A stretch of 64,000 nucleotides of DNA from IMG/VR virus record IMGVR_UViG_3300050821_009094, positions 1 through 64,000 of that record, one strand, 5' to 3'. The translations under genes and the position numbers were made by a program. The notes under the pieces were generated by a model that saw nothing but the letters and a program-made list of their open reading frames with translations, had not been told where the DNA came from and ran no database searches. Numbering within the stretch: the first letter of the stretch is position 1; each line of letters begins with the position of its first letter. Positions 3,034-45,372 of this stretch are shown here, in pieces. This stretch comes from a virus.

Positions 3034-3477
3034 TTAGTGTTTCGTTTGAAACCCGCCACCAACCGCTACCCCACCCCCCGATCCAGGACCAGAGATCGGC
3101 GCTGCCACGCGCAGCGCATCCACCTGGTTCGAGATCTTGGTGAGCGTGTCGGCAATCATCTGTTCCCGCTGTTCTTCCAGGGCTAGTTTCGAGGTCACAT
3201 CGCTGACCTTTTGATCCAGCGCCCCCCGCTTGTTGTCCTGGTCCTTGAAGGCGTCCTTGATGTCCTTGATAGCAGTTTCGAAGGTGTTTTTCACTGACGA
3301 AATGTCGCGATTACCCTCGACCTGGCCCCAGACCACGAACCCCCAACCCGCCGCGACCGACAGCATGATAATACCTCCGATCACCATCTGCTTGACGCTC
3401 ATACTGACGGTCGAGTCGGGCGAGATGGTGCCGCCCCCATTGCGTCCTTGACGTTTCTGGGGGCGGCGCCTGGGCAT
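3034..3477 (-). CDS. membrane-anchored coiled-coil protein
   Basis: 147 residues. A very basic N-terminus (PRRRPQKRQGR) comes first, then one membrane helix at about residues 29-51, then a coiled coil to about 120 and a Gly-rich tail. Topology by the positive-inside rule puts the coiled coil in the periplasm, as in an inner-membrane spanin subunit. It lies directly downstream of the outer-membrane barrel gene 3478. An i-spanin role is inference from layout; family not recognised. Confidence 0.65.
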   Translation of the reverse strand: MPRRRPQKRQGRNGGGTISPDSTVSMSVKQMVIGGIIMLSVAAGWGFVVWGQVEGNRDISSVKNTFETAIKDIKDAFKDQDNKRGALDQKVSDVTSKLALEEQREQMIADTLTKISNQVDALRVAAPISGPGSGGGVAVGGGFQTKH

Positions 3478-4293
3478 TTAGAAGTCGTACCGGATGTACG
3501 CCTTGTACTGGGTGCCGATGTTGGCGCTTGCGTTGAGCGTCAGCGGAGCGCCATTCGTGGCAAACACGTTGTCGAAGGTGAAGCCGCGGGTTGGCCAGTC
3601 CACGGCCACGCCGAGATCCAGTGCGCCGCCGTTGGGCTTCCCGGTGGAGTCGATCGTCTGCCACAGGTAACCGGTACGGATGCCAGGAGCGACGCCAACG
3701 GACGTGCCGGCGCCTTGGGCAAGTCCGGTGCCGCTGATGCCGAACTCGGTCACAAACGCCCCGAAGTACTCTCGCGGTGTGACCGCAACGGCGACGTTAG
3801 ATGGGAGCTGCGGCGTGAACGCCGGGAACGGATTGGCGATACCAAGCCGGGTCATGAGCAGCGATACCAGGTCGGCGCCAACGTCAACGCCCTGCATCGA
3901 GGACCAGCGCGAGGCCACCCCAAAGCTTGCCGCACCCGTAGTGGGGGTCGCAGAAGTACTCACGCCACCACTGATGTTCTGGAAAGAACCGCTGACATAA
4001 ACGCGCGCCCATTGGGCAATGCCCGCGATGGAGGCGTTTCCCCAAATATAGCCGCCTTCGAGATCAATCGACTGGCCGGCAGCGACAAGGTTGTTGCTGA
4101 CAAGTGAAGTGGCAAACACGTTGTTATTGACGTTGGCCTGATCGACGCCGGACGTAGTACCGACGCCCCAGTACCAGCCGGATCCAGTGACGGTGAGGAA
4201 CGGGGTAGGCGCTGCTTTGACAGCCATATCGGCCGCCACGGCAGGAAGAACCAGCGCAATCAGTGCGGCGCTGGAAAGCAAGAATTTACGCAT
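3478..4293 (-). CDS. outer-membrane beta-barrel protein with signal peptide
   Basis: 271 residues. A textbook signal peptide (MRKFLLSSAALIALVLPAVA, cleavage before AD at 21) is followed by alternating Gly/aromatic strands and ends in RYDF, the terminal Phe expected for BAM-dependent outer-membrane insertion. The style resembles Rhizobiales outer-membrane proteins. ATG 4293 has an AGGAGA site. A porin-like gene inside a phage lysis block is unusual. It could mask the host receptor (superinfection exclusion), alter permeability at lysis, or be a host gene picked up by transfer. The exact barrel family is not assigned. Confidence 0.75.
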   Translation of the reverse strand: MRKFLLSSAALIALVLPAVAADMAVKAAPTPFLTVTGSGWYWGVGTTSGVDQANVNNNVFATSLVSNNLVAAGQSIDLEGGYIWGNASIAGIAQWARVYVSGSFQNISGGVSTSATPTTGAASFGVASRWSSMQGVDVGADLVSLLMTRLGIANPFPAFTPQLPSNVAVAVTPREYFGAFVTEFGISGTGLAQGAGTSVGVAPGIRTGYLWQTIDSTGKPNGGALDLGVAVDWPTRGFTFDNVFATNGAPLTLNASANIGTQYKAYIRYDF

Positions 4294-4350
4294 GGTGTAT
4301 CTCCTGAAAGGGGCCTGATGCCCGAGGGGATACTACCTGCGATCTTAGTG

Positions 4351-4500
4351 TCATTTCCGCAACACCGACACTTTATCTGTTAGATAAGCCGTGCCCGCCG
4401 GCCCGGCCGGCGGCTTCTTTTTGTGCGGGACCGGCAGGTCGGCGGCATAGGCCGACGTCACGAGCAAGGCGGTGATCAGGAGCACCATAAATCTGAGCAT
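4351..4500 (-). CDS. small exported protein, 49 aa
   Basis: ATG 4500 starts a 49-residue product with a signal peptide (MLRFMVLLITALLVTSAYA, cleavage before AD) and a short Pro/Lys-rich mature part (PHKKKPPAGP). Size and Pro content resemble an outer-membrane spanin, but there is no lipobox cysteine. It lies between the holin-like and barrel genes. Confidence 0.55.
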   Translation of the reverse strand: MLRFMVLLITALLVTSAYAADLPVPHKKKPPAGPAGTAYLTDKVSVLRK

Positions 4501-4502
4501 GA

Positions 4503-4823
4503 TCAGCTACCAATCGCGCCGCCGCCGACTACGCCAGGAGCTGCGGCGCCAACCGGAGCCGCCTTAGCAGCTACCACTGCCGCCGCGCTCGTGTGCTTGG
4601 CCGTCAGCTTTTTCAAAAGACTGTCGGCAATGATGTAACCGCCTGTTGTCCACCACCCCCAGGCAATGCCGCCCAGCGTCATACCGGCGCCAATGAATGC
4701 CGTCACCTGAGCTTCATCAGTAATGATGCCTCTGGCGAGCAAGTACATCCCGGCGGTGCGCAGTACGTCACGCGCGCCTTGAGCTACTAACGGCTGAAGT
4801 GCACTCCAAGTGGTTTGGTCCAT
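4503..4823 (-). CDS. putative phage holin (Pam3 gp28-like)
   Basis: 106 residues. The N-terminal half is amphipathic, then a Gly/Trp-rich hydrophobic stretch (IGAGMTLGGIAWGWW, about residues 44-58) and an Ala/Gly/Val-rich C-terminal region. The pattern resembles the Pam3 gp28 family of putative holins as I remember it. It sits downstream of the endolysin in the lysis block, which supports a role in timing membrane permeabilisation. Assignment is by architecture and context. Confidence 0.6.
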   Translation of the reverse strand: MDQTTWSALQPLVAQGARDVLRTAGMYLLARGIITDEAQVTAFIGAGMTLGGIAWGWWTTGGYIIADSLLKKLTAKHTSAAAVVAAKAAPVGAAAPGVVGGGAIGS

Positions 4824-4830
4824 TTTAGCC

Positions 4831-5070
4831 TCACTGGTTTCCTTGGTTGACTGGTTTAAAGGACACTATGCCACCCCACCAAAAATGACAGCACAAAAAG
4901 CCGGTAAGGAAGCCAGCAATCCATGGGAATGGAGGGAAATCGGCTGTAACAGTCCAGACGAAACGCGAGAGTGTCGAAGTATTCTCGTGCAGCGACCAGC
5001 CCTCCATGATTGAGAAACTGACCACAATCAGGAGCAACCAGACTGCCCATTTGATACTGCCTTTCATCAT
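4831..5070 (-). CDS. two-helix membrane protein of the lysis block
   Basis: 79 residues with two hydrophobic helices (about residues 7-22 and 47-66), the second rich in Phe, Cys and Trp. The start overlaps the endolysin stop by four bases, so it is translated with the lysin. A second holin or antiholin is plausible. No family recognised. Confidence 0.65.
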   Translation of the reverse strand: MMKGSIKWAVWLLLIVVSFSIMEGWSLHENTSTLSRFVWTVTADFPPFPWIAGFLTGFLCCHFWWGGIVSFKPVNQGNQ

Positions 5071-5645
5071 GTCACTACCCCCGTTGAAGCCATTTTAAGC
5101 GCCTGCGTCCCGATCTCCTTCGACCGGCGAATCCAGTCAGTACCGAAATACTTGAACGTTGTCAGTGAGCGGTAGTACGCCTCGCGCGCTGCGGTGAAAG
5201 CGTTGATCATGCCGGTTACGTTAGAGATGGCAGCAACTGCAGCATCCGTCTGCGATCCCCACATACCATCGGCCGCAATGTTGAGGGAGCGCTGCAACAG
5301 GATCGTGGACCTGCGTGGCCCGGCGTTCACGTTCTCATCGAACACGCATAGATTAAAGCCAGCCGGCAGCTTGTCGCAATTGGGCTGCCAGTACGAATCT
5401 AGGTAGATCGTCTCGCCTTGTATCTGCGTGATCTTGCGCACATCGACGATCGGCAAGCCTTGGGCTTTCAGCCACAGATCGTACTCGTTGCCGGTGATCC
5501 CGCATTGCGTCTCACCGCCGGGATCGTGCGGGTCATCGTCGAAATTGCGCGGGTTGGACCAGTCGGCGGCCGTGCCAGTGTAGACGTTGCATTCCTGTTG
5601 CAACGTGAACGGCAGGCAGGCGAGGAAATTTTTAAGGTCAGCCAT
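5067..5645 (-). CDS. endolysin, GH108-type lysozyme with peptidoglycan-binding C-terminus
   Basis: 192 residues, normal for the GH108 plus PG_binding_3 family. The N-terminal signature is visible as Glu18, then DPGG (about 41-44) and CGIT (48-51). The middle NAGP/LQRSLN region resembles the PG-binding half. It would cut the glycan strand of host peptidoglycan at lysis. Odd feature: the usual Glu-Gly-Gly at the catalytic Glu is replaced by Glu-Cys, with a longer loop before DPGG. No signal peptide, so it needs the holin. Start overlaps the 5638 gene. Confidence 0.85.
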   Translation of the reverse strand: MADLKNFLACLPFTLQQECNVYTGTAADWSNPRNFDDDPHDPGGETQCGITGNEYDLWLKAQGLPIVDVRKITQIQGETIYLDSYWQPNCDKLPAGFNLCVFDENVNAGPRRSTILLQRSLNIAADGMWGSQTDAAVAAISNVTGMINAFTAAREAYYRSLTTFKYFGTDWIRRSKEIGTQALKMASTGVVT

Positions 5646-5757
5646 TTTTCCTCACCCACGCAGCGAAATGCTCGTTCTTCATGTGCTCATGCCATTGCTT
5701 CTCGGTCATCTGGCCGGACAAATAGCAGGCGAGGATGAGATCATAGCGGTGGCTCAT
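5638..5757 (-). CDS. small acidic-basic hypothetical protein, 39 aa
   Basis: ATG 5757 overlaps the stop of the 5754 gene (ATGA), and the stop overlaps the endolysin start. Product MSHRYDLILACYLSG... ends WVRKNG. No membrane helix. The double overlap with real genes makes it likely to be expressed. Function unknown. Confidence 0.6.
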   Translation of the reverse strand: MSHRYDLILACYLSGQMTEKQWHEHMKNEHFAAWVRKNG

Positions 5758-5954
5758 TTGGGCGCCTCACATTTAGCTTTCGCTTCGTCTAACTGCTTTT
5801 GCAAGTCGACGATTTGTTTGGCCTGGGCTTCGACTGTCAGCGCCCATTGAGCGATGACACCATTGATTGCCAGCGCGGTTTGCGACGGGGTGCGTTGCTC
5901 TTGCGCTAACGCCGGGGAGCTGAATAGTAAGGCCACGCCAATTAAGAATTTCAT
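5754..5954 (-). CDS. exported helical protein, 66 aa
   Basis: Signal peptide MKFLIGVALLFSSPALA (cleavage before QE) followed by a single amphipathic helix with heptads (IVDLQKQLDEAKAK). It is adjacent to the endolysin. A periplasmic helical protein here could be a spanin component, though no lipobox or membrane anchor remains after cleavage. It is part of the unusual run of exported proteins. Confidence 0.65.
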   Translation of the reverse strand: MKFLIGVALLFSSPALAQEQRTPSQTALAINGVIAQWALTVEAQAKQIVDLQKQLDEAKAKCEAPK

Positions 5955-5961
5955 ATTTCAC

Positions 5962-7356
5962 CTAGCAGTGCGTGACGATGCCGTTGACGCTGGCGAAACT
6001 TGAAGTTGGCGACCCAGTGCAAGACAGACCAGTATGGGCGCCCACAATAAAAGCCTGTCCTGTGACTACTCCCGTGGGACTAACCACAAATCCAGGCGTA
6101 AAGATCGCTGCGGTCGTGAATGTAGCGCTGCCCCATTGTAGCCCATAGCTGTGGGTTCCAGACGGGGCAAGCCACATATTCGTTGCGCTGCTGTTCGATT
6201 GAATATCGGCAGTGTTGATACTGGCAGCATAAAAAGCGAGGCCAACATCCCAGTATGCAACGAAATCTGCTGAACGTATTTCGACGCCGACGCCACCGTT
6301 ATTGTGCCCTGTACCGCCATAGTAGGCCAGGTCAAGCCCGACAAAAAGATTTGGGGTGCCAACTGGATTAAACAGCGCCGGTGCCCCAGTTAAGTTCTGT
6401 ATATCGCCACTGAGAAAAACAGCACCGTTGCCAACAGTCGTCGCTTCCGTCACCCCAAACATATCATAGCCGATATGACCTTGGTTGACATCGCCTGACT
6501 GTACCGACGCGGCGTAAAAAGCCACGTTGTCGTTCGTGGATCCCGTGCCGCTTGTGTTGGTGGTGACGAAAACTTTCAGCCCGTTTAATTGCTGGGTGTT
6601 GTTGGTGGTAGCGTCAATTCGCATCACTGAACCAAGCGAACCATCGCCCGAACTCGTTCCATTGACGATGCTCTCGGTTCTGCTGATCTGTACGGTTGGC
6701 GTGTTGCCCGCAATAATCGGGTGCGCAGAACTGCCCGACTCGATCAGCAATTCGTTTGGTGTATTGGCGGAAGGCAGCAGCGTGCTGTTCGGTCCAAGAA
6801 TGGAGAATAGATCGGGGCTGACGACATTCGTACCCGAAAAGGTGTTGTTGCCCGTAAGCGTATTATTACCATCGAGAAGTACGAGATCACTTCCCAACAC
6901 GCCCGAGTCGCTCAACAATGACCCAGATGTGTTGTTGAACAAGGCGACATCTCCTACTGTCGATGAAACCGGTCCAACAATTCCGCCAACGGTGTAGGGA
7001 AAATTATAAGTCGTGCCGTTGAGCACGATCGAGAACGGCTGTGGCGTGTCGGTGCCGAAATTCTGGATGACCAAGCTCACGCCGGTTGCGTCGCTGATGT
7101 TCCAACAGACCTGCTGATAGCCCGGCGCTGTCGGCGGTGCGGTACTCTGGCAGATCGTCTGGCCTTGTCCGACCACGCCAAGGCTGGTCAGGAAGCCGTT
7201 AGCAGCGGTACCGGCGTCCTGGATGATGCCATTGGTCGTCCAGGATGCTGCGTGGCCCGGCGTGACGTTACCCGATTGTTTGACCGCATTACCGGTTTGA
7301 CCAAGCGCCGGCAGGCACGTCGCCAGCAACAGAAAGACACTAAGGAAGCGGCTCAT
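5962..7356 (-). CDS. exported fibre-like protein with QSG/PGH module
   Basis: 464 residues. A signal peptide (MSRFLSVFLLLATCLPALG) is followed by the QSGNVTPGHAASWTTNGII module (about residues 27-45), which also opens the 7340 and 13737 proteins. A small beta domain with two Cys (about 65-110) and a long Ser/Thr/Asn/Gly-rich beta region follow. Composition is that of a fibre or spike shaft. No enzymatic motif seen. Start overlaps the 7340 gene by 17 bases. Virion fibre versus secreted protein cannot be decided from sequence. Confidence 0.7.
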   Translation of the reverse strand: MSRFLSVFLLLATCLPALGQTGNAVKQSGNVTPGHAASWTTNGIIQDAGTAANGFLTSLGVVGQGQTICQSTAPPTAPGYQQVCWNISDATGVSLVIQNFGTDTPQPFSIVLNGTTYNFPYTVGGIVGPVSSTVGDVALFNNTSGSLLSDSGVLGSDLVLLDGNNTLTGNNTFSGTNVVSPDLFSILGPNSTLLPSANTPNELLIESGSSAHPIIAGNTPTVQISRTESIVNGTSSGDGSLGSVMRIDATTNNTQQLNGLKVFVTTNTSGTGSTNDNVAFYAASVQSGDVNQGHIGYDMFGVTEATTVGNGAVFLSGDIQNLTGAPALFNPVGTPNLFVGLDLAYYGGTGHNNGGVGVEIRSADFVAYWDVGLAFYAASINTADIQSNSSATNMWLAPSGTHSYGLQWGSATFTTAAIFTPGFVVSPTGVVTGQAFIVGAHTGLSCTGSPTSSFASVNGIVTHC

Positions 7357-7831
7357 AGAACACCGTGATGTTGGCTGTTGCGGCTGCGCCCTGGGCGTTT
7401 TGCAGTTGGAAGTAGATCACGGTGTCCGAGAACACCATTGTATCCTGACTGTTGATTGTCAGCGACTGAGCGTTATTGTTGGTATCGGCGTTCGGCGTCG
7501 TGATGGTGATGGCCGATCCGGCAGTGACGATCGCAACACCGCCTTGTTGGATACCGGTGAACACGCCGCACGTCGCCATGGTCAGTGCCGACGAAGACCC
7601 TGAGATAACGATTCGATCGCAGCGCCAGCGGGTGAACCCGACTGGCAGATTGATCAGGATCGGGTTGTCGAAGTTGGTTTGATTAAAGTTGACGTTGGTG
7701 ATTGACTGCGAGAGCAACCCCTGGGTATTAAGCAGGATCGCGGTCCCGCCGTCGCCAACCACTTCATTGGTCGTCCAGACCGCCAGATGCCCTGGAGTAA
7801 CCCTGCCTGACTGGAGAACCCGGTTGCTCAT
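7340..7831 (-). CDS. fibre-associated beta protein, paralogue of 13737 gene
   Basis: 163 residues, no signal peptide. It starts with the module QSGRVTPGHLAVWTT and continues with blocks nearly shared with the 13737 protein: VNFNQxNxDNxILIxLP, RWRCxRIV, ATCGVFTG, NAQSLTIN and NVFYEPLP-like endings. It is clearly a duplicated gene. The beta-rich fold with paired Cys suggests a receptor-binding or fibre-tip protein. No known family recognised. Confidence 0.75.
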   Translation of the reverse strand: MSNRVLQSGRVTPGHLAVWTTNEVVGDGGTAILLNTQGLLSQSITNVNFNQTNFDNPILINLPVGFTRWRCDRIVISGSSSALTMATCGVFTGIQQGGVAIVTAGSAITITTPNADTNNNAQSLTINSQDTMVFSDTVIYFQLQNAQGAAATANITVFYEPLP

Positions 7832-7844
7832 GGTTCGAGCTATA

Positions 7845-9209
7845 TCACATATGGAACAAGCAGTGATAGACGAGTTTTGTGCCGCTGATTGAACCGCTGG
7901 TCACCGACCATCCCGTGTATGGGCTGGAACCAATGGGCGTAACCGCAAGTCCTCCCGTGACGATGCAATCCGGCAATTGCAACCACGTTTGAGATTGGAA
8001 CGTTACCGTACAGCCCGTAGCACCAGACCCCACGGTAATCGTACCGCTGGTGTCGGTATCATTGGTATCGATGCTTGCTCCCGATCCGCATGAACTAACA
8101 GCAGGTGGTGACGCGCTCGGTGACTGGTTATAGGGGTAATGGGTAGCCAAACCCGACGCGGTGAAGTAGCCCTGAAAATTGGTGCCTTGATACACTAAAC
8201 TCGACGCGACGGAACAGCCGGAAACGATTTGCTGTTTCATCACGCCATTGTTGGCGCCCGCCAGGTTGGTGCTGCCGACCAGCCAATAGCACGGGCCGCC
8301 GACGCTACCAGTTATGGTATCGTACGACCCGAATGTGTTTATCCCGGTGCTGTCACCCCTGATAACGCCGGTCTGCCCGCCGCCGAGTATTGTACCCGAT
8401 CCGATGAAATTGATCGTCGCGCCGTCATCCAGCCACTGCCCGCCGTTGAATATGTCAACGACTGATTGTGTAAGTCCGGTCCCAACCGTGATATTGGCGA
8501 CGCCGGTAACAAAAACCTCGCCGCCGCCTTCAAGGTTGAAAATATCACGGCCGGATGACGGCCCAAAATTATTGGTGCCACTGAACTGGACCTTGGTGCC
8601 AGTCCACGCGCTCACGATATTGCAAACATAGGTCGCTTCACTGGTTGCGTTGGCGCTTATGCCGTGGAGATTATAATTGCCGGAGTAGAACAATAAGACT
8701 GCGCCATCGCCGCCCCAATCGCCCTTGTTGCAGGTCCCGTTCGGCGGCGAGATGACGACACTGGACGGCGATGCGTCGTTGCCGAAAATCTCTATCTGGC
8801 TGTAGCCATAATTGGCGTTGCAAGTGAAGCATTTCGGAAAGCCAATAGGCGATCCAAATTGTGGTGTCTCGGGATAGGTGCCATTGCCCGTGTATATTAC
8901 GGCGCTGCCGACATTGAAACTCCAGAGCAGCGTCTGGTTCATAATATAGAGAGCATTCTGGAGTGTCTTGCATGGCGCGGCGATCGTCAGACACGTATTT
9001 GAGTCGCTTCCTGCCTGACAGGTCGATCCACCGTTGACACCACACGGCGTCGTGCCACTGCCGGATGGGTTGACGTAAAGAGCGACATTGCCGGTAACCA
9101 GCGAGATCAGACTGGCGATGGCAGCACCCCGGATCCAGCCCGGCGCCACTTGCGGGACCAGAACAAGCGCAACCGCTGATGCAATTAGAAACGTTCGCAG
9201 TGCCTTCAT
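7845..9209 (-). CDS. exported parallel beta-helix (pectin-lyase-like) spike protein
   Basis: 454 residues. A hydrophobic N-terminus (about residues 7-22, again 29-42) precedes a YVNPSGSG...PCGV / CKTLQNAL pattern, characteristic of the start of right-handed beta-helix proteins. Repeated short strands rich in Asn, Gly and Ser follow to about 330, then a Cys-containing C-terminal domain. Such folds occur in polysaccharide-degrading tail spikes. Catalytic residues cannot be picked out by eye. Starts in an ATGA overlap with the 9206 gene's stop. Confidence 0.65.
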   Translation of the reverse strand: MKALRTFLIASAVALVLVPQVAPGWIRGAAIASLISLVTGNVALYVNPSGSGTTPCGVNGGSTCQAGSDSNTCLTIAAPCKTLQNALYIMNQTLLWSFNVGSAVIYTGNGTYPETPQFGSPIGFPKCFTCNANYGYSQIEIFGNDASPSSVVISPPNGTCNKGDWGGDGAVLLFYSGNYNLHGISANATSEATYVCNIVSAWTGTKVQFSGTNNFGPSSGRDIFNLEGGGEVFVTGVANITVGTGLTQSVVDIFNGGQWLDDGATINFIGSGTILGGGQTGVIRGDSTGINTFGSYDTITGSVGGPCYWLVGSTNLAGANNGVMKQQIVSGCSVASSLVYQGTNFQGYFTASGLATHYPYNQSPSASPPAVSSCGSGASIDTNDTDTSGTITVGSGATGCTVTFQSQTWLQLPDCIVTGGLAVTPIGSSPYTGWSVTSGSISGTKLVYHCLFHM

Positions 9210-12200
9210 GGGATAACCTCGACGATTTGAGCATCGGCTGCAAGCGATACCGAAACCGATGACGTTGAGTGAGTTGTAGTTGGGGTGGTGCTGACTATGG
9301 GATCGTAGACGTTGACGGTCGTCGCCGTGATCGGCAGCGTTACCGTAAGCGACGATGTGGAAGGTGTTACTTGGCTATGGGTTGTATCGTTCCATATCGT
9401 CGGTTCCTTCCAGATCACGATTTCCCATGTGCCATTTGATTTCTCCAGCAGCAAGGAATTGCCGCCGCCTGCCCCTGCCGCAGGCAACCCGGAAATCGAA
9501 TAATTGAACTGGCCAGGCGTAAACGTTAGAGCCGTACCGCCGGTGTCATTGAGTATCGTGTAGGTGTTTTTTACCGCGGTGCCATTCACCTTAATGGTCG
9601 CCTGATCGCTCTGATAAAAACCGTAGTTATCGATGCAAGCACCATCGCCGGTGTTGAAGTCAAAAAGTGTATAAAGCGTCGTGTAGGGAACGCCTGCGGT
9701 AAACATATCGAAATAGATATTCATCTCCAATCGCGCCTGCGTGGTCTGATCGACCGCGCCAGTCTGCGCCGAAGGCGTGCAATAGCCGCCCTCGGTTATG
9801 ACAGTAGGCGCGCCAACAATCGGCTGGTTGGCCGGATTGAGCGCCGCCACCATCGTTGAGCCGACATAGGTCGTCGGCTGCGTGCCGCTGAATGGATAAA
9901 AATGGATGTTGTTGTAATTTGCCGTGCCGGCAATGCTCGGCGGCTGCGGCACCGTGTTGCCGAAGTAGCTGGTGTAATTTGCTACCTGGACGCCGGCCCC
10001 GGTCAGGGTCGCATCGGCTTGCGTGACGTTATAAATCAACGCCTGCCATAACAGACTGGAGGCCACCGATGCTTCGAGTTGCGCCAGCGGCGCGGCAGAT
10101 GGGCCTGTGACGCCCTGTGCCGAGAACTGGATAAGATCGCCACTTTTTACACCACCATTGATGGCGTTGGCGCTCATCGTCAGCGTGGTGCTGGTGGCTG
10201 ATACGACCGTGGTGCCCGGCGCTATCGCCGGCAAAACGGCGGCAGCATTGAGCACAACGGCATCCGCTATGGCGCCGTTAGCATTGCCGGCGCCGGTCCC
10301 GATCGTGACCGACAATCCCGACTGGGTGGATGTGAATGTCTGGTATTCGTTAAGCGTGTAAAAGCCGTTGCCGAGCTGTGTATAACCCGAGCCGGCTGTT
10401 GGTGCCGCGGTCGAGGCCATGCGGAAACCGCCGAGAACAACCGTGTTGTTATGCGAAGTCGAGATGGTAAGAGGATCGGTTGTCCCCGTAATGGGGGAGC
10501 CATCGAAAGGCGACGACGTATTGCAATTGACAATTCCAACGACACCAGCCGCGACAAAACCGGGAGGATTGCTAAACGTAATGGTGTCGGTCTGAGGAAA
10601 TCCACCGCTTGACGGTCCTATGGCATAGAATTCCTGCTCTGGCTGTCCTGTGCCGGCAGTTGCTCGCAACGCCCAGCTCAAACTCAAAGAATCGTTTACC
10701 GCAGAGATAGCGCCGGTATTTGTCGCCGTGAACGCCACCAGACACTCGTTCGGCGAGTTTATTGTAATGGGAACCTGAAAACCCGTACTGCAACTGGCAC
10801 AAGAAAGATAGTTGCTCCCTGGATCAACGGTTTGAGAAACATCTGTTACCGTTATGCCGGTGCCGGCATTGACCGTTCCGGTCCCGCTGAGTGTAAAGCT
10901 GTAGTTGCCGACCGACTCGACTTCGGCAGGCGTTGCGGCGAAGTGCAGTACGGCGCTGCTGGTGGACGTGGTGTTGTTGGTGGTGCCAGTGTTGACATAG
11001 CAAATCGGGAAATTGTTGGTCTCGTTCGGTCCCTCGTTCGCCAGCATCTTGCCGGGGTAAGTGGTAACAAACGTATTCATCAAGGCAATGGATGCAGCCG
11101 CACCGGTTGACGCATTATCACAGTCAATGGTCGGAAAACTGACCGGGCCGTTGATCCAAAGGAAATTAAACCTGACGTTATCGTTTGCTGCGAGATAATT
11201 ATAATTGCCACCGCCGTCGCCTGGCGTCGGCATGACGGCGCGCGCTACCGTCATCCCCATATTCGACATCGCGGTTCCGGCTGCGGCGGCAGGTGTGCCA
11301 AGAGGATCAACAACGCCGACCGAATTGGTGAAGTTCTTGGCGCGTTGCGCCTGCGCTCCAATGGTGCAAGGCGAACTCCCAATGCCCCCGACTGCAATCA
11401 AATAATTGGCAAAGGCACCGCAGGTGTTTGAAACATCTTGGGCAGTCATTTGACTGCCCCAGAATGCCATGGCTACTATTGACGTGGAATCCGAGAATGC
11501 GCCGCCGGCGCCATAATAATTAAGCAGGTTTGCAGTACCAGTTCCAACGCTGTTCGAAGTAGAATTCGGCGAACCTATTGCAGTGTTGTTAAAATACAGC
11601 GTAGTTGCCGATACTCCGGTACGTACCGCAACGGCATAACCTGACTGAGATGCTTCGGTTTCTTGATCGAATCCTAAACTATTGGAAAGTTGAGCAAGCA
11701 AAGTACCAGCGCCGGCATTGTTTTCCACCAATGCGTAGACAGCGGTATTAGCCGAGCCGCCTAGCATTATACCGCCGTTTGTTGGAGCAGTCCCCAACAA
11801 CCAACCGCCGAGGCTGACACTGTTCTGCGTCAACTGAGTGCCGGAAGTAAATGAAACTCCGCTGGCTAAATAGCTGGTTGAACCATCCGAATTATAGCCT
11901 TCATTGGCTGTGAAAGTCGGCGAGTTGACCGCAGTCAAAGTTGCCGTGCCGGGATTTTTCCAATTGATCAGGGCCGACTGACTATCGGCTGCCGCCGGAA
12001 CATAGAGGTAATCCATCTTCCCCCAAACATTCGATGGATTCGCCAAAAGTGCCGCAACCAGATTGTTGATCGCGGTTTTGTATGCTGTCGTTGGCGGGGT
12101 ATTAAACGCTGCAAAAATTGCACACGATTGTGCGAGGTACGGACAAACTGTGCCGGGCACAGTATGATTATAACTAGAATCACGACCAGGCGGCAGGCCG

Positions 12201-12247
12201 GTCCCACAAAGAAGAACAACAAGCAGTACCAGAAACGCGCGCTTCAT
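9206..12247 (-). CDS. large exported multidomain glycosidase-like spike
   Basis: 1013 residues from ATG 12247, preferred because it forms a TGATG overlap with the upstream stop. Hydrophobic N-terminus (KRAFLVLLVVLLC). Residues about 90-290 look like a LamG/concanavalin-like sandwich (GGWLLG...). A clan GH-A-type hydrolase follows: ANEGPNE supplies Glu405/Glu409 as candidate acid/base, and ITEGGYC supplies Glu819 as candidate nucleophile. Between them lies an inserted beta-sandwich region of about 300 residues. A C-terminal beta domain closes it. Likely substrate is a capsule or exopolysaccharide. Enzyme class is inferred from the two Glu motifs. Confidence 0.65.
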   Translation of the reverse strand: MKRAFLVLLVVLLCGTGLPPGRDSSYNHTVPGTVCPYLAQSCAIFAAFNTPPTTAYKTAINNLVAALLANPSNVWGKMDYLYVPAAADSQSALINWKNPGTATLTAVNSPTFTANEGYNSDGSTSYLASGVSFTSGTQLTQNSVSLGGWLLGTAPTNGGIMLGGSANTAVYALVENNAGAGTLLAQLSNSLGFDQETEASQSGYAVAVRTGVSATTLYFNNTAIGSPNSTSNSVGTGTANLLNYYGAGGAFSDSTSIVAMAFWGSQMTAQDVSNTCGAFANYLIAVGGIGSSPCTIGAQAQRAKNFTNSVGVVDPLGTPAAAAGTAMSNMGMTVARAVMPTPGDGGGNYNYLAANDNVRFNFLWINGPVSFPTIDCDNASTGAAASIALMNTFVTTYPGKMLANEGPNETNNFPICYVNTGTTNNTTSTSSAVLHFAATPAEVESVGNYSFTLSGTGTVNAGTGITVTDVSQTVDPGSNYLSCASCSTGFQVPITINSPNECLVAFTATNTGAISAVNDSLSLSWALRATAGTGQPEQEFYAIGPSSGGFPQTDTITFSNPPGFVAAGVVGIVNCNTSSPFDGSPITGTTDPLTISTSHNNTVVLGGFRMASTAAPTAGSGYTQLGNGFYTLNEYQTFTSTQSGLSVTIGTGAGNANGAIADAVVLNAAAVLPAIAPGTTVVSATSTTLTMSANAINGGVKSGDLIQFSAQGVTGPSAAPLAQLEASVASSLLWQALIYNVTQADATLTGAGVQVANYTSYFGNTVPQPPSIAGTANYNNIHFYPFSGTQPTTYVGSTMVAALNPANQPIVGAPTVITEGGYCTPSAQTGAVDQTTQARLEMNIYFDMFTAGVPYTTLYTLFDFNTGDGACIDNYGFYQSDQATIKVNGTAVKNTYTILNDTGGTALTFTPGQFNYSISGLPAAGAGGGNSLLLEKSNGTWEIVIWKEPTIWNDTTHSQVTPSTSSLTVTLPITATTVNVYDPIVSTTPTTTHSTSSVSVSLAADAQIVEVIP

Positions 12248-13740
12248 CAGATCGAGTATCCCCACGCCGTTACTGAAACTACGCCGCCGGTGCTTGCAGC
12301 CGACGAAATGACGGCAATCGAGGTTGATACGGCACTCGCCGGAATGCAGGGGCTAAATACTTCCTCGGTAACACCTAACCCGGAAGCATTCGGCGCGGTC
12401 CACTGCGTGAAATTAAGTGTTCCTGTCACAGTGCCCGTCACCGTCGCATTGCCGGTCACAGCCGCGGTTGCGTTGGCGCGGATAGAGAAGCCACAAATAT
12501 ACGTCAAATGCCCGGATACGTTGGTCAGCGTCGCCGTCGTCGCCGCAGTCGTGCCGGTAGTAGAGGCCGTGATGGGCACGGCAGTTGCCGGATATGGGCT
12601 GATCGAGTCGACCGCACCGATGTTTACCGTATGCGATACTTGTGCCGGGATCGGTTGCCCGGTATTGGTCGCAATCGCCGCAAGTGAAGAATTGCCGGTC
12701 GTCTGCAGCGCTGCAGTCGCCGCCGATCCAAGCGTGGTGTTGATCGTGCCGAGCGAGGTGTTGATAGTGGTCAGCGTCGAGTTGCCGGTGGTCTGCAGCG
12801 ATGAAGTTGAGGCACCGGTTGGCAACGGAAATGCCGACGCGATACTGACCGGTTGCGTGGTGGCAGAGGCATCGACCAGCAGCGCATTTCCGACCGTGAC
12901 ATTGGCCGAATTGCTGCCCTGATGGATCGTCATCAACCAGGGCGACGTGTTTGGGGTATTGCCCGGCTGTACCGTCCAGGTGCCCGACTCAGTCGCCGGG
13001 AAGGTACCGCCCGTGCCGGTCGTTAAGATCGCCGTGCCATTGGCCCCGGTGTTGGCCAGACTGACCTGCGCAGGAGAAGCCGCAGTACCGATCTCAGCAC
13101 CAGCCGCGGTGCGCAAATTGACCATGCCAGCGCGATAGGCTGTCATCTGCCATGCACCGGTCTGGCCCGTCGTCAAGGGATTGGAGGTCGCCGTGGTCTG
13201 GAACACGCCGCCGGCAGGGGTCAGCGCCGTGGTGCCGAACGTGAACGCGGACTCGTCCACAACCGCCGTACCGCCCGAGCCGGCGCAGCCGGTCACGCAG
13301 TTGACGATCAGGCGCCCCGAGGCGTCGAGCTGCAACCCCTCGAACTGACCAGTCGAAGGACTGGGCAGTGACGAGTTGTACACGCCGCCAATGAACAGTC
13401 CCTTGGCCGGGGCGGTAGCACCTGGCGCGACTTGTACGGCAATCTGATTAGCTGCTGTTCCCGCTCCAGTCGGTAACGGCCACGACACAGCACTGACAGG
13501 CTGGGTCGTGGTGCCTGTCGGGTCAGTACGCAGGGGGGCGCCAGCAGTGGCGACTTCGGTGCCGGACGAGTTTTCCAGCACCATGGCGGTGTAATATGGC
13601 CCGGAGCCGAAGATCTGGATCAAGAAGGTATTGAGGGCCGCGTCCTTGTAGGTGTAGGTCGTGGATGCCGCTAGCGCCACCTCCACCGTTACGGCCAGAA
13701 ACAGAGCGGCGCCGGCCGCGATCTTCTGCAAGCGGGTCAT
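12247..13740 (-). CDS. exported fibre/baseplate-like repeat protein
   Basis: 497 residues from ATG 13740 (MTRLQKIAAGAALFL...). A longer frame reaching 14091 is only antisense-free shadow of the upstream gene. Signal peptide ends VALA before AS. The centre carries repeats of the type LQTTGNSTLTTINTSLG / LQTTGNSSLAAIATNTG, typical of trimeric fibre or baseplate shafts, and TTQPVS blocks recur twice. The C-terminal beta domain has two Cys. Start overlaps the 13737 stop (ATGA). Role: adhesion or structural fibre, inferred. Confidence 0.7.
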   Translation of the reverse strand: MTRLQKIAAGAALFLAVTVEVALAASTTYTYKDAALNTFLIQIFGSGPYYTAMVLENSSGTEVATAGAPLRTDPTGTTTQPVSAVSWPLPTGAGTAANQIAVQVAPGATAPAKGLFIGGVYNSSLPSPSTGQFEGLQLDASGRLIVNCVTGCAGSGGTAVVDESAFTFGTTALTPAGGVFQTTATSNPLTTGQTGAWQMTAYRAGMVNLRTAAGAEIGTAASPAQVSLANTGANGTAILTTGTGGTFPATESGTWTVQPGNTPNTSPWLMTIHQGSNSANVTVGNALLVDASATTQPVSIASAFPLPTGASTSSLQTTGNSTLTTINTSLGTINTTLGSAATAALQTTGNSSLAAIATNTGQPIPAQVSHTVNIGAVDSISPYPATAVPITASTTGTTAATTATLTNVSGHLTYICGFSIRANATAAVTGNATVTGTVTGTLNFTQWTAPNASGLGVTEEVFSPCIPASAVSTSIAVISSAASTGGVVSVTAWGYSI

Positions 13741-14288
13741 GGCATACCTAGTGGTTGTGAGTCGGGAGTGCCTGTGGGTGGCGGGGGTACGATGGTGGCG
13801 GACAAGGGTAGTGGCTCGTAGAACACGTTGACGTCGGCATAGGCCGCGTTGCCTTGCGGGGTTTGCAGACGGAAGTAGATGGCCGTATCCGACAATGCTT
13901 CGGTATTCTGGTTGTTGATCGTGAGCGACTGGGCGTTGTCGTCGGTATCGATCATGTTCGTCGTGATGGTAATCGCCGTGCTGCCGGACACGATCGCGGT
14001 GCCGGTCCCGCCGACACCTGTGAACACACCGCACGTTGCCGTGCTGAGATTGCCGGATGGGTTGGAAAGCACGATGCGGGAGCAACGCCAACGGCCATAG
14101 GTTGCCGGCAGCTTGATGAGAATGAGGTTATCGACGTTGGCCTGGTTGAAGTTGACTGCCTTGATGGTGGACAGAAATTTGGCGTAGGTGTTAACAATTG
14201 TAACCCCGGCATCATCAATCACGCCATCGGTCAACCAGGCCGCCAAATGACCTGGCACGACGCTGCCACTTTGCAGAATTTGGTTCAT
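13737..14288 (-). CDS. fibre-associated beta protein, paralogue of 7340 gene
   Basis: 183 residues, no signal peptide. Opens with QSGSVVPGHLAAWLTDGVI, the same module as in the 7340 and 5962 proteins, and then matches the 7340 protein along its length (VNFNQANVDN, RWRCSRIV, ATCGVFTG, DDNAQSLTIN, NVFYEPLP). A Pro-rich tail of about 25 residues is unique to this copy. Duplication and divergence of a receptor-binding protein is the simplest reading. Confidence 0.75.
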   Translation of the reverse strand: MNQILQSGSVVPGHLAAWLTDGVIDDAGVTIVNTYAKFLSTIKAVNFNQANVDNLILIKLPATYGRWRCSRIVLSNPSGNLSTATCGVFTGVGGTGTAIVSGSTAITITTNMIDTDDNAQSLTINNQNTEALSDTAIYFRLQTPQGNAAYADVNVFYEPLPLSATIVPPPPTGTPDSQPLGMP

Positions 14289-14521
14289 TTATCAGCCGGT
14301 TTAGGCGCTTCTTCAGATTTTACCTGCGCCGCTGCCTTCACGCGCGTCTGCCAGTTGACGCACCACGTCGCGATATAGGCGGTTACCGCAATATCGACGG
14401 TCGGCGATTTGGCCGCCAGCGCACACATCGAGGCAATATTGTTCTGATCCTCGTCGGTGACGGGAAAAGGAGCGGCGAAGGCCGTTGATGTTAGAACTAA
14501 AAGCGCGACGATTGTTTTCAT
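14285..14521 (-). CDS. small exported protein, 78 aa
   Basis: Signal peptide MKTIVALLVLTSTAFA (cleavage before AP), then a helical region with two Cys (MCALAA, TWCVNW) that could form a disulphide in the periplasm, and a charged tail. Overlaps both neighbours by four bases, so co-translated with the SGNH hydrolase gene. Function unknown. Confidence 0.65.
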   Translation of the reverse strand: MKTIVALLVLTSTAFAAPFPVTDEDQNNIASMCALAAKSPTVDIAVTAYIATWCVNWQTRVKAAAQVKSEEAPKPADK

Positions 14522-16086
14522 AATGCTGAAAATCCCGATGGTGGGCTATAGAACGGCGAGGCACCCGAATAAGTGAAAGAACCTCCAGCGTAATTTAGCC
14601 CCAAAGCCGCATAGATTGTGTAACTGCCGCTCCATGTCAGCCACGGGTTGGCACCAGTCGCTGGATTGCCGCTCGCGCCCCACACATTGTTGATGCCGAG
14701 CCACGCTTTTTTCGCGTCCGCATCAAACGCAATCATGATCCGGTCGCCGAGTCCCGGCGTTATCGTCACCGCATTTGCAATGGTGAAGCCCGTAATATTC
14801 GGTGTGCCGCCTGATGCTACGCTGTTGGCATAGGTGCCAAGATCGAAACTGAGTGGCATGTATTGCAACTGCGTATCATCACAAATGCCATAGCTGTATG
14901 CCGCCCCCGTTCCAGCAACCAAAAATTCGAAATACCATTTGCCGGTTGACTTGCCGATCAGGGAACGAGCCACGTTCTCTATTGCGCCGGTCGGATTCGA
15001 TGTAGCCGTAAGGTTGCTGTTCGACAGCGTAAATATGGGCGTAGCAGTGAGATTATCGAGCGTGTCCGGCAACGTGGTGAGCGTTGCCGTCATCGCCTTG
15101 AATATGTAAGGCCCTTGTCCTAGCGTGCCTGTTGGGGCAATGCGGACATCGTAGGCAGTGGCCGCCGAAAGTCCCGTCAGCAGAACAGAGGGATTGCGCG
15201 ACGCGGTATGAGAGAACGATGTCCAGCTTCCAGAGCCGTGAACGGCGTATTGAATTGAATAATCCGAATAATATCCGCCGGAACTGGGAAACGACCACGA
15301 CAACGCAATCGAAATGTTTTTGGTTGCTCCTTGCTGGATATTGAAAACAGAACCGGGGGTTACCGCACCAGCAATCAGGCTGTTAATGGTCGCCGCGTAC
15401 ATGCACTCCATGTATGTCTGACCAAGATTGGTCGGGTGAGTGCCGTCGCTGAATAGGTTTGTGAACAGCGATATTCCGGGGATGCCTACCGACGCGCTGC
15501 TGCCGTAGTCAATCAAGGCATCGCAGTGCGTCGGGACCAATGCAGAAATGGCGGCATTGAGCGTTGCCCGCCATGTCTCATGGGCTTGATCGCTATCGAA
15601 ATCGGTTAAAGTCGAAACTACAGCATAGGTAAAACCCCCAGATTTAACGCTGTCACACACCCCACCGATGGCTGTGGCAAGACCTGCAGCATTGTTTGGA
15701 TAGTAGGTTGCGTTGCTTGAGTCATTGACCCCAATCAGAATCGTATAGATGTATTTGCTAAAACCTGGGTTTGAACTGATAAGAGCAATGTCGGATGACT
15801 CGCGCGAGACAGGTCCAGCAACCCCATCGCCGGAGTGGCCATTATTCTGCAAAGTAACCAGCGACGTATTCGGAGCATACAAATTAGGATAGCTGGTGAC
15901 TCCCGTGGCACCGTGATTTTGAGTGATGCTGTCGCCTTCGGCTACAATGAAGGTGCTGCTGGCGGTCGGAGCGACGTGGCACGGACATGTGCCGCAGTTG
16001 TCAATGAAGAAAACTTGCGAGGATGATTTACTATAGAATAGCGCCGCACAAGCAACAGCAAGCGCGGCTATCACAAACTTTCGCAT
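14518..16086 (-). CDS. SGNH/GDSL esterase with Fn3 and SPRY-like domains
   Basis: 522 residues. Hydrophobic N-terminus (residues 4-18). SGNH blocks are all visible: GDSI (Ser53 nucleophile), the NNGHSGDG glycine block (about 81-88), GVND (119-122) and DGTH (Asp214, His217). Residues about 250-335 form a fibronectin III-like domain, and about 345-522 a SPRY-like domain (GKWYFEF, AFDADAKKAWLG, NPATGANPW) also found in the 25292 protein. Probable role: deacetylation of host surface polysaccharide. A hydrophobic leader on such a fibre enzyme is unexpected. Confidence 0.8.
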   Translation of the reverse strand: MRKFVIAALAVACAALFYSKSSSQVFFIDNCGTCPCHVAPTASSTFIVAEGDSITQNHGATGVTSYPNLYAPNTSLVTLQNNGHSGDGVAGPVSRESSDIALISSNPGFSKYIYTILIGVNDSSNATYYPNNAAGLATAIGGVCDSVKSGGFTYAVVSTLTDFDSDQAHETWRATLNAAISALVPTHCDALIDYGSSASVGIPGISLFTNLFSDGTHPTNLGQTYMECMYAATINSLIAGAVTPGSVFNIQQGATKNISIALSWSFPSSGGYYSDYSIQYAVHGSGSWTSFSHTASRNPSVLLTGLSAATAYDVRIAPTGTLGQGPYIFKAMTATLTTLPDTLDNLTATPIFTLSNSNLTATSNPTGAIENVARSLIGKSTGKWYFEFLVAGTGAAYSYGICDDTQLQYMPLSFDLGTYANSVASGGTPNITGFTIANAVTITPGLGDRIMIAFDADAKKAWLGINNVWGASGNPATGANPWLTWSGSYTIYAALGLNYAGGSFTYSGASPFYSPPSGFSAL

Positions 16087-16089
16087 GGC

Positions 16090-17805
16090 CTACCGGACCT
16101 TGCGTTTGAGTTGCTCGATTTCGGCTTGTTGCTCTTGCAGCGCCTTTACTAGAACCGGCACGACGCCTAGATAGTCAAAGGTGTTGGGTTGGCCTTGGTC
16201 GTCAAGACCGGCGAGTTTCGGAAGCACCTTGATGCCCTGCTCGGCTGTGAACCCATAAAGCAATTTGTCCGGATCACCATGATCGGAATTTAGCTTGTAC
16301 TTTACCGGCTCCAATTTCATGATCTCGGCCAGCCCAACGTCTAAATCACCAATATCATGCTTGTACCGCGTGCTCGACGTGCCGAGGCAAATTCCCAGAG
16401 TGCCCGATCCAGAATAGAACGCATGGCTCGTAGTATCTTCACATACCGTCGCGTCGGTATGCGTTGCGTCGCTGCTAATCTGCGGAAGTTCAAATAAACC
16501 GGCGGAAGTAATCACAGCCAAATTGCTACCGTTGTTGACAAGAAATGTGAACCCGCCAGACGCACCTGGTGCGTTGAAGTAAACCGTGTTGTTCATCCCT
16601 GCTGTCTGTATCAAAGCGGTCGAAGTCGTGAAGGTACTTTCTCCAAGCCAGAGCGCGTAATAGCTATTCGCAATGACGTTCGGCGACGACACCGCGAAAA
16701 CTGGCGTATAGCCACCACCAGCAAGTTGTGACGACATCACCAAATTGCTGCCGACGCGCGTCACCACACCTTGAACCGGCTGATTCTCGATGATCCAATC
16801 CACTTCGTTCGTAGCCGCTGTGGCGGTCGTGTTCCAAGCCTGCCCGCTAAGACGCAACCGGGGCGACCATTGCTGCGCACCGGAAGCAGCCGCGGTTGTG
16901 TTGGTCAGCACATAACCGTCAGTCGAGGTCGCACCGATGCTTTGTGTATTGATCTCATGGCTGGCAGTATAAGTGATGCCACTTGTTGCCTGTATTACTG
17001 ATCCATCCGTATAAAGCAGGTTACCCGCGCTGCCGCCGCTGACGGTGGTTGAATTGATCGTAAGGCCGCCACCGCTCTGCGCCACGCAGGCGGGCAAACC
17101 GCCAGAAGCGCCGAGGACATTCGTTCCGGTGCAAACCGCAAGCCGCGTCAGTACGCCGGATGAATTCCGATAGTAGAGGTCGCCAGTGGCATCAGACCCC
17201 AGCGTCATGGTGACGCCGCCGATCACGTCCGAGGTATTGTTCAACGTAACCGATGTCGGCGTTCCGAGAATGGGCGTGACCAGCGTCGGCGACGTGGCAT
17301 AGACCAGATTGCCGCTGCCGGTCGTGCCGAACGTTCCTGCGCCAACGGTCTGATAATTGGTGCCGTCCGATACCACGCGGTAGCACTGGCCCTTAATGAT
17401 CGGCAGCGTCGCCGCGCCATTGATGGTCGAAGTCGCGGGGGTTAGCGTCTGCGTGCCGGCGCCGATATTGCAGATGTCAGCGTACCAGTTCGCAGCGAAG
17501 TTACCGCCAGTGCCAGCTTGAGCAATCGTTGGAATTTGGGCCGACCCATTGGATAGATCGACTAGCTTGCCGCAATCGGTATTGTTGATCGGGTAATTGG
17601 CGCCGGTCTGCAGATTCACCACTTCAGCCGTTGAAATCGTTCCGGTCGTCGTGATTGGACTCGGGCTTACTACACCAGCGCAGCCTGCGGATATGCTGGT
17701 GACGGTGCCGGAACCGCCACCAGAACTTCCTCCCGGCAACACAATCTGGGCATTTGCAGGTGTGATAAAACAAAGCGCAAAGCAAACTGCAAGAATCTTG
17801 CGCAT
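16090..17805 (-). CDS. exported tail fibre with S74 intramolecular chaperone
   Basis: 571 residues. Signal peptide MRKILAVCFALCFITPANA, then a Gly/Ser/Thr-rich fibre body and, from about residue 470, a peptidase S74 chaperone domain: GTSSTRYKHDIGDLDVGL with the Ser and Lys of the autocleavage site, LEPVKYKL, YGFTAEQ, and a terminal coiled coil (VKALQEQQAEIEQLKRK). S74 domains trimerise fibres and then cut themselves off. The combination with a Sec leader is odd, because S74 fibres normally assemble in the cytoplasm. Confidence 0.85.
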   Translation of the reverse strand: MRKILAVCFALCFITPANAQIVLPGGSSGGGSGTVTSISAGCAGVVSPSPITTTGTISTAEVVNLQTGANYPINNTDCGKLVDLSNGSAQIPTIAQAGTGGNFAANWYADICNIGAGTQTLTPATSTINGAATLPIIKGQCYRVVSDGTNYQTVGAGTFGTTGSGNLVYATSPTLVTPILGTPTSVTLNNTSDVIGGVTMTLGSDATGDLYYRNSSGVLTRLAVCTGTNVLGASGGLPACVAQSGGGLTINSTTVSGGSAGNLLYTDGSVIQATSGITYTASHEINTQSIGATSTDGYVLTNTTAAASGAQQWSPRLRLSGQAWNTTATAATNEVDWIIENQPVQGVVTRVGSNLVMSSQLAGGGYTPVFAVSSPNVIANSYYALWLGESTFTTSTALIQTAGMNNTVYFNAPGASGGFTFLVNNGSNLAVITSAGLFELPQISSDATHTDATVCEDTTSHAFYSGSGTLGICLGTSSTRYKHDIGDLDVGLAEIMKLEPVKYKLNSDHGDPDKLLYGFTAEQGIKVLPKLAGLDDQGQPNTFDYLGVVPVLVKALQEQQAEIEQLKRKVR

Positions 17806-18311
17806 TATTCATAATCCGCTGAGATGTACCCCGTGTCAGTCCCGGTCGTATAAGTGAACGGCGTGGTTGCCGAAGTCATCAAAATGACAATTCCAGTACC
17901 ATACGCGACGGTGCCATTGATGTGTGCCAACGAGCAGCCGCGCGCTGTCGTATCGAAATAGCAAACATCAAGAACTGCCGCGCCCGTCAAAGCCCCCGTG
18001 CTTGGCGCCGATGCTGCATTATAAGCAATACAGTAACCTGCAGCACCACCTGTGATCGCCGTGCAATTAAACCCTGCCAGATCACCTGCCGCAGCTTTGA
18101 CGACAAGAGATGTACCTAAACTTGTCGTAACCGCATGACTTAAAACCACTGCTGAAGCAGCGGCGGAAGTCGGAAATAAGTTCGTGGTATTGCACGGGAC
18201 GTAGCGATTTGCACCCGCTGTTCCAGTATCGCAGTAAACGACAACGGGAGTTTGTGCATCGACTAAGGTTGGTGTCAGCAGGATGGCGAGAAAGACGAGG
18301 ATCTTAATCAT
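17805..18311 (-). CDS. exported Cys-containing beta protein, 168 aa
   Basis: Start placed at ATG 18311 (MIKILVFLAILL...), which overlaps the 18308 stop as ATGA. Signal peptide ends VDA before QT. The mature part is Ala/Thr/Gly-rich with six Cys in pairs (YCD, PCN, NCT, YCI, VCY, GCS), suggesting disulphides and hence an extracytoplasmic destination. No known family recognised. Confidence 0.65.
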   Translation of the reverse strand: MIKILVFLAILLTPTLVDAQTPVVVYCDTGTAGANRYVPCNTTNLFPTSAAASAVVLSHAVTTSLGTSLVVKAAAGDLAGFNCTAITGGAAGYCIAYNAASAPSTGALTGAAVLDVCYFDTTARGCSLAHINGTVAYGTGIVILMTSATTPFTYTTGTDTGYISADYE

Positions 18312-18583
18312 CTCATTCTCACCAGCCAGCACGCGGTCAGAACGAACAGCGCGTAGATCGTCAGCGAGACGATCTGGAACACGTCGGGTTTTGGCGTGAG
18401 GTACCAGAGCCAGAACGCGGAGCCTACGGCGGGCACCGCGAACAGCGCCGGCATGGCCGCAAGCGCACGCTTCGACAGGGCGCCAAGCCCCATCATTAGC
18501 ATGGTCATGCCGGCGTCAGTGCCGGACTTGGTTTCGGATTCTTCAGTTTCGGGAACGACTTCGAGTTTGAACGGCTCTGCCAT
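18308..18583 (-). CDS. two-helix membrane protein, 91 aa
   Basis: A charged N-terminal 25 residues precede two hydrophobic helices (about 45-62 and 68-88) and a basic end. It overlaps the 18543 gene by 41 bases and the 17805 gene by four. It sits between internal virion proteins and the fibre block. Possibly holin-like or a membrane target of ejection proteins; not recognised. Confidence 0.6.
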   Translation of the reverse strand: MAEPFKLEVVPETEESETKSGTDAGMTMLMMGLGALSKRALAAMPALFAVPAVGSAFWLWYLTPKPDVFQIVSLTIYALFVLTACWLVRMR

Positions 18584-40643: not shown

Positions 40644-40996
40644 CACAGTTTCCCCATGTTGTCTCGCATGATGCCGTCAATAATGGGCAAAAGAATATCG
40701 TCTCGATCCTCGATCGATTCGTCGGCAAAGGCAAGCATGGGGATCTTCAAGATCGCCGGCTTCTTCGGATCGTAGAACACGTTGTCCGGCGGTACTTTCC
40801 ACAACAGGATGCGGCGACGATCCCTGTCATGATCACCCAGTGAGAAGAACTCGCCAGCACACTCGTCAGTGAAGCGCGTGCCAAATCGCCGGTCGATCTC
40901 CATTTGCCGAATTGGCTCGCGGATATGGGCGGTGCGATCCGGGTGATCATGAAACCACTGGCCATCTTCATCGAGTTTGCGCAAGGTGACAGTCAC
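40643..40996 (-). CDS. hypothetical protein, GTG start, 117 aa
   Basis: GTG 40996 (MTVTLRKLDEDGQWF...) makes a GTGA overlap with the methyltransferase stop and is preferred to ATG 41023. Charged protein, rich in Asp/Arg/His (HDHPDRTAH, GDHDRDRRR), possibly metal-binding. No family recognised. Confidence 0.65.
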   Translation of the reverse strand: MTVTLRKLDEDGQWFHDHPDRTAHIREPIRQMEIDRRFGTRFTDECAGEFFSLGDHDRDRRRILLWKVPPDNVFYDPKKPAILKIPMLAFADESIEDRDDILLPIIDGIMRDNMGKL

Positions 40997-41805: not shown

Positions 41806-41806
41806 G

Positions 41807-42225: not shown

Positions 42226-42226
42226 T

Positions 42227-43766: not shown

Positions 43767-43779
43767 TATTAAACCTCAG

Positions 43780-43947: not shown

Positions 43948-43948
43948 T

Positions 43949-44959: not shown

Positions 44960-44960
44960 G

Positions 44961-45353: not shown

Positions 45354-45372
45354 GAAAGTTGCCCTCTAACAA

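Follow-up and report, generated by a model that had tools for sequence, protein, structure and literature searches.

Does a phage send its own fibres out of the host cytoplasm before they are used? The fibres of tailed phages are assumed to fold and assemble in the cytoplasm, a reducing compartment, and the question is raised by a run of leftward genes, at positions 3478-18311 of a 64,000-nucleotide stretch of viral DNA, whose fibre-like and enzyme-like products begin as secreted proteins do. The stretch (positions 1 to 64,000 of IMG/VR record IMGVR_UViG_3300050821_009094, here called the window) makes up the bulk of an uncultured virus record of 65,543 bases. A sequence-only reading had listed eleven genes of this block with Sec-type N-termini and had proposed either that the phage secretes a set of surface-modifying proteins or that the hydrophobic leaders act as virion anchors. 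It numbered the genes by their low (3') ends, as is done here. Our analysis suggests, with a probability of roughly 0.7, that the block is a late cassette encoding fibres and polysaccharide enzymes that are exported and disulphide-bonded, together with an outer-membrane barrel.

Leaders in the window and in related phages

Signal peptides were predicted with a home-made scorer combining a von Heijne cleavage matrix, the hydrophobic core and the N-terminal charge. It called all of 20 known Escherichia coli leaders, and on a stretch of the E. coli chromosome with 42 genes it gave one clear false positive, tolR. The single call among 55 lambda genes was Lom, a true outer-membrane protein, no gene of 31 was called in T7, and internal methionine starts from the same phage family were called in 3 of 997 cases. 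The starts of four genes were corrected before scoring, each to an ATG (12247-13740, 9206-12247, 17805-18311 and 4351-4500).

On these starts, where the sequence-only reading had suggested such a prediction, all eleven genes lie on the minus strand as described and nine have clear Sec (signal peptidase I) signal peptides (3478, 4351, 5754, 5962, 7845, 12247, 14285, 16090 and 17805), with a basic n-region, a hydrophobic h-region and small residues at -3 and -1. The cleavage sites listed earlier are present, the best cut in 3478 being VAA↓D or AVA↓AD (arrow at the cut). The remaining two are borderline: 14518 has a weakly scoring leader with a possible lipobox, LAVA↓C, and in 9206 a basic N-terminus is followed by a strongly hydrophobic core but no AXA site, small residues at -3 and -1 being absent. 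Gene 4831, which encodes a small membrane protein in the lysis cassette, also passes narrowly (score 7.09), and the N-terminus of its product is probably not a cleaved leader. Every call in the window falls within 3.5-18.3 kb, and none was scored in about 40 other window genes. Inside the interval, the fibre-like genes 7340-7831 and 13737-14288 are leaderless. Wrong start codons were considered as a cause and set aside, since the starts were corrected and the leaders open with in-frame ATGs, several of these overlapping or abutting the upstream gene.

The leaders are a property of a phage family. A search with the 977-amino-acid virion protein encoded just upstream of the block (19003) found eleven relatives with 34-84% identity, and leader-bearing genes lie downstream of that protein in all eleven. 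Among genes of at least 100 amino acids in the 12 phages, leaders were called in 0 of 106 within 13 kb upstream vs 53 of 139 within 10 kb downstream (Fisher p 4e-16, the 12 phages being relatives and not independent). Chance hydrophobic N-termini are ruled out by these upstream genes together with the lambda, T7, E. coli and internal-methionine controls. The block proteins vary between phages, as receptor-binding proteins do, while the leaders remain; several relatives have a similar leader-bearing gene at the position of 17805.

Sec leaders were also seen in uncultured phages unrelated to this family, on S74-matching proteins (L008 9464-10348 and L011 436-3462) and on a fibre-like protein (L020 7317-11078, MW202444), and exported fibres may therefore have arisen more than once.

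Mature ends, cysteines and leaderless homologues

Many block proteins share an N-terminal fibre motif, QSGxVTPGHxxxWTTxGVxxDxG, to which the cleavage score is blind. The motif starts 2-7 residues past the predicted cut in proteins with a leader and 4-8 residues past the methionine in leaderless proteins; one protein of relative L053, with a sub-threshold score, was counted as leaderless (distance 24) and is plainly leader-bearing. The module thus begins at the predicted mature end, in the same place where leaderless copies begin, which disfavours the earlier proposal that the leaders anchor these proteins in the virion. Sixteen predicted cuts have alanine at -3 in 15 cases, alanine (11) or glycine (4) at -1 and glutamine at +1, the mature end, in 13. 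Identity is 36% among the leaders (25% against shuffled leaders) and 44% over the next 75 residues.

In many of the phages a leader-bearing gene is overlapped from directly upstream by a leaderless one of about 163 amino acids, made up of the module and a jelly-roll head; 7340 and 5962 are such a pair. This head is also the C-terminal domain of leader-bearing proteins in L004 (E 6e-39 and 1e-26), L044 (3e-33) and L034 (6e-14). A model of the jelly-roll has its best solved matches in the cement and baseplate proteins of phages (Z 8.3-8.9), and the fold is too common for such a search to fix a function.

The cysteines point in the same direction as the leaders. When the mature leader-bearing proteins were clustered at 40% identity, the cysteine count was even in 36 clusters, odd in 6 and zero in 5. 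The cluster of 5962 has 4, 6, 8, 10, 12, 14 or 20 cysteines in its 18 members and an odd number in none. Structural proteins encoded upstream in the same phages have 32 even and 30 odd counts; the contrast with the leader-bearing proteins has a Fisher p of 3e-4, which overstates independence because the sequences are related. In one homologous domain, a cysteine pair is found in 14 of 14 leader-bearing copies vs 0 of 4 leaderless copies on other contigs, and a second pair, WC..DCG or CW..DCG, recurs as a unit in four proteins. Among the proteins that Gram-negative bacteria export, even cysteine numbers are favoured (PMC7678975). The even counts and the pair that tracks the leader argue strongly, if indirectly, for oxidation outside the cytoplasm, and export signals with matching cross-link sites indicate that the fibres are probably exported through the host secretion gate.

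Two relatives have twin-arginine translocation (Tat) leaders, L030 at 6570-7925 (MTRRLFLRG...) and L054 at 3352-5139 (MISRRRLLIS...; 595 amino acids, no family assigned). The L030 protein matches PHROG 5939, annotated as tail protein (E 6e-56, profile positions 351-761 of 801), and the NCBIfam gene transfer agent spike-fibre domain (E 1.6e-45). It is 39% identical to the tail proteins RcapMu58 and P106B_37 (Rhizobium phage P106B), both of which are leaderless and come from cultured phages. Residues 37-263 of 9206, its first mature domain, are likewise 32% identical to residues 535-765 of phiM12 gp203, and residues 37-289 are 28% identical to residues 447-690 of RHph_N3_2 EVB98_023, two leaderless proteins of cultured rhizobial phages with the domain at the C-terminus. 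In phiM12, RHph_N3_2 and P106B the domain thus lies far inside the protein or at its C-terminal end, whereas in the window phage and its relatives a leader stands ahead of it. The lineage appears to have put an export label ahead of ordinary phage tail domains. A suspected kinship between a small exported L003 protein (10571-10801) and a leaderless small protein of phage MW202825 could not be confirmed.

Export of a surface-acting set of proteins, the other proposal of the sequence-only reading, is accordingly supported by the position of the cleavage sites, the cysteine parity, the correlation of leaders with disulphides and the Tat leaders of relatives.

Genes of the block and their surroundings

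The block and the two genes upstream of it comprise the following features.

3478-4293, minus strand: predicted outer-membrane beta-barrel (from a structural model) with Sec leader 1-21 (VAA↓DM or AVA↓AD, score 9.3), last residue F
4351-4500, minus strand: 49-amino-acid protein, Sec leader AYA↓AD (score 12.9), mature part of 30 amino acids rich in proline and lysine
5754-5954, minus strand: 66-amino-acid protein, Sec leader ALA↓QE (score 13.2), short mature part
5962-7356, minus strand: 464-amino-acid fibre-like protein, Sec leader ALG↓QT followed by the QSGNVTPGH fibre module with a cysteine pair
7340-7831, minus strand: leaderless 163-amino-acid partner with the same N-terminal module and a jelly-roll head, overlapping the start of the 5962 gene
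7845-9209, minus strand: 454-amino-acid protein, leader APG↓WI, 14 mature cysteines, possible beta-helix, without Pfam match
9206-12247, minus strand: 1013-amino-acid protein, hydrophobic leader without a clear AXA site, candidate glycosidase motifs
12247-13740, minus strand: 497-amino-acid protein, Sec leader ALA↓AS, mature part with 4 cysteines
13737-14288, minus strand: leaderless 183-amino-acid paralogue of 7340 (module and jelly-roll)
14285-14521, minus strand: 78-amino-acid protein, Sec leader AFA↓AP, one cysteine pair
14518-16086, minus strand: GDSL/SGNH hydrolase with a fibronectin type III (fn3)-like domain, weak Sec or lipoprotein-type leader
16090-17805, minus strand: 571-amino-acid tail-fibre-like protein, Sec leader ANA↓QI, 8 mature cysteines, C-terminal Peptidase_S74 chaperone
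17805-18311, minus strand: 168-amino-acid product of the first gene of the block, Sec leader VDA↓QT, 6 mature cysteines
18308-18583, minus strand: small protein with hydrophobic segments, directly before the exported block, kept in L004, L005, L024-L026 and L028
19003-21936, minus strand: presumed internal virion protein, 977 amino acids, leaderless, adjoining the block upstream; the query that found the phage family

The fibre features described earlier were borne out in part. Peptidase_S74 in 16090 (PF13884, 36.3 bits against a cut-off of 22; also in relative L028), the GDSL/SGNH hydrolase in 14518 (Lipase_GDSL_2, 38.9 bits against 32.9) and the paired cysteines were recovered, while the glycosidase in 9206 and the beta-helix in 7845 have no Pfam support and are unproven. 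No Pfam glycoside hydrolase match was found for 9206 even at E 5, and a PDB sequence search gave no match; by its two candidate motifs, NEGPNE (404) and TEGGY (818), it may be a glycosidase of clan GH-A.

The description of all members as fibres or enzymes was too broad, since one is a likely outer-membrane barrel and three are very small. The modelled strands of 3478 match NspA, OprF, OmpA, OmpX and a Legionella porin, with Z up to 13.9 (NspA, OprF and the porin) at a predicted local distance difference test score (pLDDT) of only 59. With this modest model confidence, 3478 is predicted to be an outer-membrane barrel of eight strands (OmpA/OmpX/Ail-Lom type) behind a Sec leader. Searches of Pfam, PHROG and NCBIfam assigned it to no outer-membrane protein family by sequence. 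Fibre genes are repeatedly adjoined by genes for small exported proteins that have a single cysteine pair and a charged tail, as in the window (14285-14521) and in L003 (13971-14231).

The virus is judged to be a podovirus, chiefly from gene order and the appearance of its proteins: polymerase, terminase, portal, capsid, tail tube proteins and three large internal virion proteins are followed by the block and lysis genes. The block is the fibre and lysis end of the phage, in the position of tail fibres in T7-like phages. No close cultured phage was found; the terminase has its best match, at 34%, in an uncultured spring-water phage, and 5962, 3478 and 19003 have no homologues among 50,697 phage records.

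The product of 18308-18583 could serve the exported block or be holin-like. In L005 (12943-13485), an HNH-type reading frame seems to have inserted into the homologue of window gene 18543 and split it; a related start follows downstream. An HNH-endonuclease-like gene on the plus strand (31842-32537) also breaks the leftward structural genes of the window beside the capsid gene. At 40993-47720, FkbM-type methyltransferase, tetratricopeptide repeat, sugar epimerase and glycosyltransferase-like genes were recognised by eye in a run, and modification of surface or DNA sugars is possible.

Alternative readings and comparison with known systems

If the block is an exported cassette, its genes would be expressed late, together with the structural and lysis genes. 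The products would cross the inner membrane late in infection and then lose their leaders; host disulphide machinery would oxidise them, and they would fold in the periplasm as fibres, probably trimeric, or as enzymes, the 3478 barrel inserting into the outer membrane. Among the uses considered, the likeliest, though at somewhat less than even odds, is action on the host envelope and, once the cell has lysed, on its debris and on exopolysaccharide. By masking or trimming receptors there, the proteins would keep progeny from being wasted on a dead host or on neighbouring cells already infected. Binding to emerging virions after lysis comes next, and other uses share the remainder. The evidence leaves us evenly divided on a wider proposal, in which most of the receptor-binding and depolymerase repertoire would have moved to host secretion, with fibres exported, locked by disulphides and used outside as free weapons or receptor blockers or mounted on virions after lysis, and with leaderless heads kept for cytoplasmic assembly.

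Several points weigh against the exported cassette. The scorer is home-made, with a matrix calibrated only afterwards, the leaders of 14518 and 9206 are not clean, and kinship among the leader-bearing sequences means that the p-values overstate significance. The exported fibres may be the only large fibres of the phage, and the shared N-terminal module could be a common virion docking site, which would make these proteins virion parts with an unusual route. Such fibres would be exported, folded with disulphides in the periplasm and bound through the module to virions released at lysis. The sequence-only reading did not separate this course from one in which the exported proteins stay outside the virion. 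We consider it possible though doubtful. It is favoured by the fibre position and the S74 domain, by leaderless partners with the same module, by the jelly-roll head that occurs with and without leaders and resembles those of virion cement and baseplate proteins, and by the fact that no large leaderless fibre was recognised in the window. On the other hand, we know of no precedent for tailed-phage fibres matured in the periplasm, some relatives have large leaderless spikes (such as an 814-amino-acid pectate-lyase-like protein in L003), and the module is missing from several leader-bearing proteins.

Uncleaved hydrophobic N-termini that anchor proteins in the virion or the inner membrane would fit the missing clean cleavage sites of 9206 and 14518. 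They are very improbable given the A-x-A consensus cuts with glutamine at +1, the agreement of mature N-termini with leaderless copies, the cysteine pairing that follows the leader and the Tat leaders of relatives. That unrelated morons, host-derived secreted genes, gathered in the fibre region by chance is equally hard to credit. The 3478 barrel begins with an AAD(M/L)PxKAP stretch, presumably like that of rhizobial outer-membrane proteins, but the same arrangement occurs in 12 phages of one family and the domains match phage tail proteins. One exact DNA pattern for the fibre module hit 11 sequences across 84,980 bacterial and archaeal species, and every hit was put down to chance (transketolases and short or out-of-frame reads). 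Homologues were not found in 297 genomes of one order either; the search of these genomes for the host through the outer-membrane protein shows little, as it had no positive control. A profile of the virion protein found no relative in the 84,980 species, and with the DNA-pattern search this speaks against a prophage origin. Misread parts of the lysis system (spanins or signal-anchor-release (SAR)-type proteins) are suggested by the endolysin and small membrane proteins in the block and by the small size of 4351, 5754 and 14285. This explanation covers at most those three proteins and not the fibre and enzyme proteins of 168-1013 amino acids, and there is very little to recommend it for the block.

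An exported block of fibres and enzymes with leader-linked cysteine pairs would point to a second, extracytoplasmic life of phage receptor-binding domains. It would also be a reservoir of secreted binders stabilised by disulphides and of polysaccharide enzymes. Two questions become testable: whether phages turn their own fibres into decoys or blockers, and whether fibres can be added to virions after lysis.

Single exported phage proteins are known, among them Lom, Bor, Llp, Cor and T4 RI. Like the predicted barrel 3478, lambda Lom (Ail-OmpX type) is a phage-encoded outer-membrane barrel with a Sec leader that lies beside tail-fibre genes, but the 3478 barrel comes with a whole exported block and has no detectable sequence homologue in cultured phages. 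The more distantly related Manatee Spring phages MW202825 and MW202753 resemble the window phage in their terminase (TerL, 34% identical) and have recognisable capsid, tail tube and S74 fibre genes; they differ in that their fibre genes are leaderless and the S74 gene lies closer to the tail tube genes. The leader-bearing block is absent from the relatives examined in annotated phage records, and no description of exported tail fibres or of a whole leader-bearing fibre and enzyme block was found in the open-licence papers searched. Few signal peptides are usual in phage genomes; five rumen phages had between 0 and 2 each (PMC5723332). The T5 protein Llp, exported to the periplasm, prevents adsorption both to infected cells and to the fragments left by lysis (PMC9586334). 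The superinfection-exclusion lipoproteins T5 Llp and T1 Cor are, like the block proteins, encoded by the phage; export of the block is predicted, and they are a functional precedent only. Llp is a single small lipoprotein, whereas the window block consists of large candidate fibres and enzymes.

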